Made by a program: the position numbers and the translations under genes. From NCBI GenBank assembly GCA_022600195.1, contig JAHZKX010000051.1, positions 62,001 through 126,000 of the forward strand: DNA of 64,000 nt. Direction: 5' to 3'. The notes under the pieces were generated by a model that searched no databases, was not told where the DNA came from, and saw only the letters and a program-made list of their open reading frames with translations. Source of the stretch: Planctomycetota bacterium. GTDB taxonomy: Bacteria; Planctomycetota; Planctomycetia; Planctomycetales; Planctomycetaceae. The stretch's first letter is position 1. Each line of letters begins with the position of its first letter. This document shows, piece after piece, positions 31,931-34,693 of the stretch.

Positions 31931-32365
31931 AGCTATTACCTTTATTGGAAAGAAACAAAAAGACCATGTGACTAAAGTAATTGGAGTACTGAAGCCTGAG
32001 GATCTTACATTGTAAACAAAGTAAAGATTGTTCTCAAATGGGATTTAGAAGAATTCCCTGTTTCCTGTCCTGAATTTCCGAACGAATGACATTCCATTTG
32101 ACATGCTGTTTCCGCAACGACTCTAACTGTCTTTTCACATGTCCTGCGACCGTTTGGTTTTCGAGCGCTGAAAAAAATAAAAAAACTCATCTTTTATTGG
32201 AACCAAACAACGGAATAGTTCGCCGAATATCCGCAATTCGCGGCTAAAGGCGGCATTCGTCTTTTCACTATTTTGAAGCACCTCATGCAAAAAAGAGATC
32301 GCATATTTCCCGTTATAATTCTCACGTAACGCACATCAAATCACTTCATTACAGGAATCAAAAAA
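31931..32365. other. 435-bp intergenic region with a frame-shifted small ORF
   Basis: Divergent promoter region of the cytochrome protein and the LexA-CsrA gene. On the minus strand, 32190-32035 starts as ATG-AGT-TTT and runs into a T-rich tract. A one-base shift there gives a plausible short protein (ALENQTVAGHVKRQLESL onward) ending at about 32039. It could be a broken small gene or a slippage site; as it stands the uninterrupted frame reads unlike a protein. Confidence 0.3.
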
Positions 32366-32749
32366 ATGAACAGCACAGATAAATCCACCAGACAGAAACT
32401 GACTGAGAAACAACACGCCATCTACACATTCATTAAACAGGAAATTATAGAACAACGCCTGTCACCAACAGTTCGGGAGATCGCCGAACAATTTGGAATC
32501 CGTTCTTCCAATGGCGTCATGTGTCATTTACGTGCACTGGAACGAAAAGGATGGATCAAGCGTGATCACTATTTATCGCGAGGCATTACTTTAATCGCCG
32601 AACCAGCCACACAGATTTTTACACTCATACCTGGTGAAGCAGCCACTATAGGCGAAGTCTATGTCGGCTGTGTCGGAGTTGAAAATCGCGGTGTGACGCT
32701 CGAACTGATCGCTCCTGACACAATGGGTAAAATTCGCAAGGACATCTGA
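32366..32749 (+). CDS. LexA DNA-binding domain fused to a CsrA-like domain
   Basis: A 127-aa protein. Residues 12-75 match the LexA winged helix-turn-helix (LTEKQHAIYTFIKQEI, SPTVREIAEQFGI, GVMCHLRALERKGWIKRD). The LexA autopeptidase is absent. Residues 83-127 instead align with CsrA: PGEAATIG, EVYVGCVGVENRGVTLELIA, AP and IRKDI, with Arg124 at the position of the RNA-binding Arg44. The result would be a protein that binds DNA through LexA-type recognition and RNA through a CsrA-type face. It is followed on the same strand by two unknown genes. RBS AGGA sits before the ATG. Confidence 0.72.
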   Translation: MNSTDKSTRQKLTEKQHAIYTFIKQEIIEQRLSPTVREIAEQFGIRSSNGVMCHLRALERKGWIKRDHYLSRGITLIAEPATQIFTLIPGEAATIGEVYVGCVGVENRGVTLELIAPDTMGKIRKDI

Positions 32750-32845: not shown

Positions 32846-33538
32846 ATGGAATACGTACCTGAAAATAATGAAAACCGAAGTCTGTTACCTTTTTCAACTC
32901 CGTTGGGAAGTGCTTCAAAATTGACGCCCGGTTCCGAGCGATCAAAACTTGAATTTCCTGAACTGTTGAAACACAGTTATTCAAATTTACTGACGATTGA
33001 AGATGAATATGAAGGTTTGACAGCAACAGAAGCAGGCACTGATGTCAAACAATGTAAAAAGCTACTTCACGAACAGGAACAAGAGATTAACAGCCTGTCT
33101 CAAAAATTGAATCAGAAAAAATCGAAACGCGAACGAATGCTCGGCGATCTGGAAGAAGCGGAAGTTTGTCTATCAATGGCTGAATCATTTGAAGCGGCCA
33201 TCGCTGGTTGGCGGGATACGATTCAAATTTTTGAATCACTACATCAGACCACAATCAACATGCAGGAACCATTCTCTCTGGCTGAACAAGCCTGGGAAGA
33301 TTTGAAACATACCGAGCAGCAGGCTCTCGCCGAACTGAATCTTGCAACGACCAACGATGTAATTAACGTCCCCTATGGATCAATGTCCGTTCAAAAAAAG
33401 GAAGCCAGACTTCCTGAAAAAGTCTCAATCGACATTCTTGGTGATTATCTACCGGTTTCCATTATGACGGAAAGTGCCCAGCTCGCTTTAACAGACTGCC
33501 AACAGGGAACCGCGACTTATACAGTCAACAGTGAATAA
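32846..33538 (+). CDS. Coiled-coil protein of unknown function
   Basis: A 230-aa protein with a coiled coil at about residues 68-110 (KLLHEQEQEINSLSQKLNQK) and further helices to ~165. The C-terminal 60 residues are less charged and contain a possible beta segment. No signal peptide or known domain is seen. It lies 96 bp after the LexA-CsrA gene and 69 bp before the next, so a common operon is likely. Confidence 0.65.
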   Translation: MEYVPENNENRSLLPFSTPLGSASKLTPGSERSKLEFPELLKHSYSNLLTIEDEYEGLTATEAGTDVKQCKKLLHEQEQEINSLSQKLNQKKSKRERMLGDLEEAEVCLSMAESFEAAIAGWRDTIQIFESLHQTTINMQEPFSLAEQAWEDLKHTEQQALAELNLATTNDVINVPYGSMSVQKKEARLPEKVSIDILGDYLPVSIMTESAQLALTDCQQGTATYTVNSE

Positions 33539-33607: not shown

Positions 33608-34693
33608 ATGCAAAACCAGACAGCACAACCAAATCAAGTTTCTGATGAATGCCGCATTGTTAGTGGTCAACTTGCCGAATGGGGTATCGAATTCAGTCAG
33701 GATCGGGTTTTACAATTATCAATAGAGCAACGCAATGTGCTCCAGAATTGGATCAATGCCGGCGTAGATGCTGATGAATCGTATCAGGAACTGTTTGAAT
33801 CGTTACCCGAATTTATGGAAAACGAGTTACTGGAAATGAGCGGTAAGTTATCGTCAGAACCTCAAGAATTGATTATCGAGCAAGCCATCAACGCATATGA
33901 AGCAGAGGCATCTGTAACCAGTAATCCTTATCTATTTGACACAAATAACTGGCACCTCTGGAGAAAAGCCTACTGTCATTGGCATCGTGGCGAAACATTG
34001 AATTTTTCTGAAGAACCAAAGTTTGGTTCGCCAACCATTGAAGACCAGCAATCGGTCATGGACCTCAGTCAGCAGTTAGTACAACTCTCTCCCCAATTAA
34101 TCCAGACAGATCAATCGCTGAAAAAACTCCGAAGTCAGTTGAAAAAAACGAAACGTCAAAGAAAAGCGATTCGTAAGCAACAATCAGAATTGTTATACAA
34201 ATTATGTGACTCAATCAGCTTTGAAAAAGAAACTCCTCTCAAGAATGAAAAAGAAGAGACAAAACAGCCCCCTTGTACTACCACGATGGGAAGCCAGACT
34301 CAAATCATTCGTATTCCGGTCACAGGACCCGATACAAATCGAGTGGAAGTCCACTTATTACAGGATCGTACTGGCCACTGGCGAGCCGGACATCTCTGGT
34401 CTGTCGATGCAGATGCGCGAACAGGACAATTATCCCGTGGCAGCAGACAACCCGATCTGAGTCAAATCACATTCCCAACCGAAACGGAAGCTTTGATGAA
34501 TGAACTCCTTGATCTGAGCCGGGGAATCATAGGCGTTGCCGAAATTGAAAGCCAGATCATCGACTACCTAAACCTGTTGGAAGAATATCCTGGTCAAATT
34601 GCCGTCTGCGGCTTTTGTCATCGCCACTATATTAATGAGGAAATCGACCCACCACACGCTTGCCCTGAATGTTCTGCTGAACTGGCAGATTAA
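33608..34693 (+). CDS. Zinc-ribbon protein of unknown function, same operon
   Basis: Start ATG 33608 has AAGGAG upstream. The 361-aa protein is helical in the N-terminal half with a highly basic stretch (KKLRSQLKKTKRQRKAIRK, ~170-190). A beta-rich region follows, then a C-terminal zinc-finger pair CGFC ... CPEC (residues ~340-357). This combination suggests nucleic acid contact. It shares strand and spacing with the two genes before it; the group may be one module. Confidence 0.66.
   Translation: MQNQTAQPNQVSDECRIVSGQLAEWGIEFSQDRVLQLSIEQRNVLQNWINAGVDADESYQELFESLPEFMENELLEMSGKLSSEPQELIIEQAINAYEAEASVTSNPYLFDTNNWHLWRKAYCHWHRGETLNFSEEPKFGSPTIEDQQSVMDLSQQLVQLSPQLIQTDQSLKKLRSQLKKTKRQRKAIRKQQSELLYKLCDSISFEKETPLKNEKEETKQPPCTTTMGSQTQIIRIPVTGPDTNRVEVHLLQDRTGHWRAGHLWSVDADARTGQLSRGSRQPDLSQITFPTETEALMNELLDLSRGIIGVAEIESQIIDYLNLLEEYPGQIAVCGFCHRHYINEEIDPPHACPECSAELAD

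Follow-up and report, generated by a model that had tools for sequence, protein, structure and literature searches.

What follows the DNA-binding head of a LexA-like protein when the autoprotease is missing? The question is raised by a gene at positions 32366..32749 (+ strand) of the window, as we call the whole 64,000-nucleotide stretch of planctomycete DNA that was analysed. Its 127-aa product appears in the ORF list and has orthologues throughout the genus genomes searched. Residues 10–73 (32393..32584, +) match the LexA DNA-binding domain of Pfam (LexA_DNA_bind, PF01726) with 68.7 bits and E 3.7e-19, against a cut-off of 23.7, and the 12 top-ranked Foldseek matches (1–12) of a full-length model are LexA structures. 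The recognition helix, SSNGVMCHLRALERKG, is close to SPNGVMCHLKALEKKG of the LexA encoded in the same genome (L001). Only 54 residues lie C-terminal to this head. A full LexA combines PF01726 with an S24 peptidase; here neither S24 nor any other peptidase family was found at E ≤ 1 in Pfam across the 127 residues, and the NCBIfam lexA model (TIGR00498) scores 65.6 bits, below its equivalog cut-off of 110.95. An earlier note on this DNA, which had placed a LexA winged helix at the N-terminus and proposed that the autoprotease had been replaced, is borne out on both points. Proteins consisting of the LexA head alone also occur: those encoded at L003:1043-1746 (contig C68 of the same genome) and L004:1501-1746 are 81 aa long, and end (..FCGVVS/Q) near what we take to be the LexA self-cleavage site. 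On C68, one such head-only protein lies ~200 bp after a csrA gene whose product has a similar ending (..AFCGSIS). Altered members of the LexA superfamily with changed domain use, such as UmuDAb, have been described (PMC4807011); a CsrA fold, the feature of the protein discussed below, goes unmentioned in the portion of that source available to us.

The remainder of the protein was more difficult to assign. About 45 of its residues had been claimed to align with CsrA, and a CsrA profile search against residues 80–127 (32603..32746, +) had been suggested as a check. Plain Pfam returned no match to PF02599 (CsrA) in this segment at E ≤ 1, so that by sequence the tail falls outside that family, and the NCBIfam CsrA model likewise gave no direct match. 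Widened profiles did score CsrA. When an alignment of the tails of 12 orthologues and two paralogues (A2) was compared with 34 planctomycete CsrA sequences using HHalign, 39 columns fell in register with a score of 19.6 and a probability of 24%, the best of 99 column shuffles reaching 15.8; with single sequences, with fewer sequences or with orthologues alone, the probability was 0.3–9%. A search of PDB sequences with A2 gave 36 rows, of which the 21 best were ubiquitin-type, followed by a dehydrogenase at E 0.17, five CsrA rows at E 0.27–0.36, and then more ubiquitins and others. Two of the ubiquitin-type rows owed their significance to the summing of a 17-residue stretch of about 4.6 bits each. 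By itself, this search lends weak support to CsrA likeness. The absence of a plain Pfam match, the low HHalign values for single sequences or orthologues alone and the placing of CsrA behind other PDB rows are all in keeping with a tail that is an unrelated β hairpin, or a decayed LexA remnant, and resembles CsrA by chance; the TIGR00498 alignment, which extends to residue 101, also points that way.

What speaks against such a chance resemblance includes a family of small proteins that connects the window-type tail with true CsrA, matching both. Across 170 genomes from this order, A2 retrieved, in addition to the genus members, stand-alone proteins of 60–65 residues from other planctomycetes, a divergent CsrA-like family represented by L102-L111, L113 and L114 (for example L108:1444-1626). 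Three of these were tested with Pfam: CsrA was the best match in two, at E 0.0022 and 0.015, both below the cut-off, and the third had none. A profile was built from 12 of these bridging proteins (A3), with the window tail and CsrA both excluded. Against all PDB sequences, its first nine of 12 rows were CsrA (E 0.0029–0.075), and in the genome of the window its sole match at E ≤ 0.01 was the window tail itself (9.7e-4; 16 of 22 candidates scored). Across 397 genomes of the class, 18 of the first 20 out-of-family matches by E-value were CsrA, as judged by a CsrA profile at E ≤ 1.8e-13, several of these being near-identical to each other; the other two were near-identical copies of one small protein from one genome. 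In other genomes of the genus, the matches listed for A3 were instead to another small ORF (e.g. G011:C1:2836575) or to a tail encoded on a prophage in genome G026. Adding the bridging proteins to the tails, with CsrA again left out, produced an alignment of 28 rows (A5) that matched the same 34 CsrA sequences in register with a probability of 93% and a score of 33.2. None of 199 column shuffles equalled that score, the best reaching 19.7. In the earlier A2 alignment with CsrA, Arg124 (codon 32735..32737, +) takes the same position as CsrA Arg44, as had been claimed.

Predicted structures, all of the monomer, gave a concordant picture. The full-length model (mean pLDDT 84) places tail strands at residues 92–95, 98–106 and 109–115, with low confidence for residues 121–127 (last block pLDDT 52). 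Since CsrA was absent from the best 50 of its 1294 Foldseek matches, the tail was modelled alone, and the resulting model, built without CsrA sequences, has a mean pLDDT of 90. Ranks 1–15 of its 140 Foldseek matches in the PDB are CsrA, RsmA or RsmE chains (E 0.026–0.73; TM by query 0.51–0.77; rmsd 1.0–3.6; 38–47 columns at 23–37% identity), and the earliest unrelated match follows at rank 16 with E 0.83. No match among the 140 attained E 0.001 or better, which we attribute to a length of only 49 residues. The tail is therefore predicted to adopt the CsrA fold, the outcome that the earlier note had asked structure prediction to decide. It is a separable module: ~45 extra residues separate it from the winged helix in the relatives L221 and L248.

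A chance β hairpin was rejected on the A3 search of the PDB, the Foldseek ranking and the A5 comparison; together with the retention of the tail across the genus, these make a CsrA-like appearance by accident, or through decay of LexA, very unlikely indeed. The likeness goes beyond chance on the A5 alignment, the bridging family, the Foldseek ranking and, as described below, the csrA neighbours at phage-type loci, and on this cumulative evidence residues 80–127 are a remote CsrA homologue. A LexA winged helix and a CsrA-fold domain are joined in one protein of 127 aa, as proposed for this single ORF. Compared with CsrA/RsmA (PF02599), the tail has the predicted fold, the strand register, the GE..IG and AP motifs and the Arg44 position in common, but it goes undetected by Pfam, has lost Arg6, is acidic and is fused to a DNA-binding head. 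CsrA has a C-terminal helix, and the tail here stops where that helix would start.

Does a protein with this fold still bind RNA? The first interpretation offered was that the head recognizes promoters while mRNA is bound by the tail, at GGA sites, and some residues are compatible with it. Arg6, Arg44 and Glu46 are invariant in the 34 CsrA sequences aligned (34/34), and the window protein keeps the Arg44 equivalent (Arg124) and an aspartate, Asp126, at the Glu46 position, leaving a partial R-x-E motif; Arg44 is essential for RNA binding by CsrA according to the part of PMC7366521 available. However, the position of Arg6, located by ungapped extension of the A2–CsrA HHalign alignment, is leucine (Leu87 in the window) in 17/17 orthologues; of the two arginines, the window protein has the Arg44 equivalent alone. 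The Arg44 position holds arginine in 12 of the 17, glutamine in four and histidine in one, and Glu46 is replaced by aspartate in all 17. By eye, an arginine equivalent to Arg44 is present in one of five phage-type relatives (L221), the others having lysine (L115), phenylalanine (L051), glutamate (the second L223 protein) or no clear equivalent (L052), and it is absent from the 12 stand-alone relatives. The tail is also acidic, with a net charge of −2 to −6 in the 17 orthologues versus −2 to +3 in the first 47 residues of the 34 CsrA proteins; the stand-alone relatives carry −8 to −11. Judged from sequence, the CsrA RNA-binding surface looks largely dismantled and RNA binding by the tail is doubtful. 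The leucine at Arg6, the incomplete retention of Arg44 and the acidic charge make CsrA-type RNA binding an improbable use for this conserved tail, and the mRNA-binding part of the earlier proposal is not upheld.

The upstream region was inspected for signals of either kind of regulation. A TATAAT and its adjoining 3′ block, TCACGTAACGCACA (32314..32335, +), are well conserved in 17 aligned upstream sequences and likely represent the promoter and transcript start region. An exact 14-mer of this block has one copy genome-wide, and with up to two mismatches the block is no repeated genomic motif, occurring at 35 sites versus 36 for a backward control. Searches for conserved blocks and repeats found no recurring operator upstream of the lexA-csrA-like gene. 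Perfect 6-base inverted-repeat arms, mostly A/T-rich and near −80 to −77, were present in 11 of the 17, and a few other upstream inverted repeats were common to close relatives alone (e.g. near −303 in four). We considered an SOS operator held in common with lexA, using blocks conserved 5′ of this gene across 14 genomes of the genus and taken from part of their alignment, and rejected it: such blocks are not repeated near the fusion gene, matching the window 7 times versus 10.0 expected and once versus 1.4. One lexA upstream block has two near-matches in the genome, of which one is lexA’s own. As for GGA stem-loops, a GGA lies 9–13 bases 5′ of the start codon in 17/17, as expected of a ribosome-binding site, and in four of 17 single folds, that of the window included, it falls in a hairpin loop. 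Such a weak hairpin loop before the start codon would fit a gene that regulates itself or is controlled by CsrA; however, with −1.2 kcal/mol and a z of 0.67 the window hairpin is no better than shuffles. With the residue changes described above, this leaves a protein that couples promoter recognition to GGA binding quite unlikely.

The lexA-csrA-like gene occurs throughout the genus genomes searched. The protein is full or nearly full-length in 15/15 same-genus genomes, its own included, with 78–96% identity over at least residues 6–126 in the 14 others, and the tail was matched at E ≤ 1e-27 in 17/17 same-genus genomes in the 170-genome search of the order. Among the matches listed from other genera, the LexA head leads the match. 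Five named contigs carry relatives, three of them Gimesia (including the closest, at 96% over the protein) and two Planctomycetaceae. A divergent gene of 1044 aa, the lexA-csrA-like gene, gene 2, gene 3 and an oxidoreductase gene occur in this order in 8/8 relatives with DNA past gene 2 (L046, L048, L049, L050, L053-L056; in L050 the divergent gene is limited to its start), L047 being excluded as it ends before gene 2. The three-gene group is present, both in the window and in these relatives. Gene 3 (33608..34693, +; 361 aa, from the ORF list and synteny) has the basic Lys/Arg-rich stretch and the zinc-finger candidate that had been noted in the group, the latter a C-terminal, zinc-ribbon-like CxxC...CxxC; its Pfam matches are all below cut-off. 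Gene 2 (32846..33538, +) encodes a 230-aa coiled-coil protein found in 17/17 genus genomes, and by coordinates it adjoins the lexA-csrA-like gene in 16 of them. In the exception, G078, the two are on separate contigs, and the matching contig L047 ends directly after the fusion. Apart from the chromosomal copies, gene 2 has a single further match in these 17 genomes, on the G026 prophage, ~1 kb from another lexA-csrA-like gene (BLASTP E 7e-14). The placing of this one extra copy ties gene 2 to the fusion, of which it is a likely functional partner, and points to a phage as the source of the chromosomal group. The C-terminal stretch of gene 2 (..SIDILGDYLPVSI..) recurs on this prophage.

Away from the chromosomal site, LexA heads joined to CsrA-like tails are encoded at four distinct loci, and a canonical csrA lies within ~1.6 kb of the fusion in all four (4/4). 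In L115 (IMG/VR), the fusion gene and csrA share an ATGA overlap, with a Sak4-like gene following within 1.5 kb. L116 (IMG/VR), which encodes the same proteins as L222 of G026, has csrA ~80 nt after the fusion and, as neighbours, a phage-type repressor, the gene 2 homologue, RecT and an O-like replication gene. Two fusions occur in L223 (G016), with csrA ~1.6 kb from the first, in the company of ParB, terminase and portal genes. In L221 (G059), represented also by the IMG/VR contig L248, csrA is ~0.7 kb from the fusion, with ParB and integrase genes nearby. At L223:9188-10907, a GroES-like gene (assigned by eye) stands on the prophage beside ParB and the second, divergent LexA-CsrA-like gene. 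Searched against phage records, the protein gave 49 matches, none of which covered 80% of the query. CsrA homologues on plasmids and phages have precedents in RsmQ (PMC9928087) and csrA+ phages (PMC7366521); judging by the available parts of these sources, those are RNA-binding homologues, whereas here csrA neighbours a LexA-CsrA-like fusion.

This neighbourhood raises the possibility of a repressor that senses CsrA, in which the tail would form mixed dimers with true CsrA and the amount of free CsrA would decide whether the heads dimerise and bind DNA. Besides the four phage-type loci, a set of 56 viral loci that encode LexA-like heads bears on it, csrA being found in 2/2 with the tail and in 1/54 without (Fisher p ~0.002), although many are near-duplicates of unequal length and the comparison is indicative only. 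A two-hybrid assay of plasmid RsmQ against host Rsm proteins appears in PMC9928087 under a section heading that has it interacting with the host Rsm system, which is as much as the part available conveys. On the other hand, the nearest Pfam csrA match is ~40 kb from the chromosomal locus, adjacency may mean co-regulation alone, and the loci are few. We regard such a sensor as possible, if on the improbable side.

For a simpler reading, in which the protein is a phage-derived, uncleavable transcription regulator of LexA type dimerised by its CsrA fold, we put the chances at about even. The LexA winged helix would bind DNA, as its homologues do, and the CsrA-fold domain, on the profile and fold evidence, would stand in place of the S24 domain. 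In LexA, the S24 domain both dimerises and cleaves the protein. Since proteins of the CsrA fold dimerise by swapping strands, the tail would most likely pair two winged helices and hold them together on an operator; titles among the tail’s Foldseek matches mention dimers. With the peptidase missing, RecA-triggered self-cleavage would be closed as a route of removal, and with its RNA-binding surface looking largely dismantled the fold would serve as a protein–protein module. These observations suggest that the CsrA fold has been put to another use, probably that of keeping a DNA-binding protein together instead of binding RNA. The origin was probably a phage regulator paired with a phage csrA, given the terminase, portal, ParB, RecT, O-like replication protein and integrase genes near relatives of the fusion and the gene 2 homologue on one prophage; the fusion would later have been fixed in the genus chromosome together with gene 2.

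As a LexA-family regulator, the protein has a new second domain, and this tail belongs to a divergent CsrA branch. We know of no LexA-CsrA fusion, and none was found among the best-ranked results of a literature search. A CsrA fold on a DNA-binding head beside a phage csrA would show the fold to be an interchangeable dimerisation module, would take LexA heads beyond cleavage by damage signalling, and could couple a lysogeny-type switch to the control of translation. CsrA has been studied as an RNA-binding homodimer. In a bolder extension, the LexA-headed protomer would swap strands with CsrA, phages and, once the system had been domesticated, the host would take free CsrA as the signal that sets a DNA switch, and a larger planctomycete family of acidic, non-RNA-binding CsrA-fold proteins would tune CsrA through mixed dimers. 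We consider this improbable; if true, post-transcriptional and transcriptional control would be connected directly at the level of proteins. The small CsrA relatives described here are missed or barely seen by Pfam, in genomes able to hold many csrA copies. The genome of the window has 13 PF02599 matches over the cut-off, two of them in one frame. One csrA gene, at C77:54720, lies ~7 kb before the window start, and at C77:238118-238375 two partial CsrA matches share a single 106-residue frame, a possible tandem CsrA.
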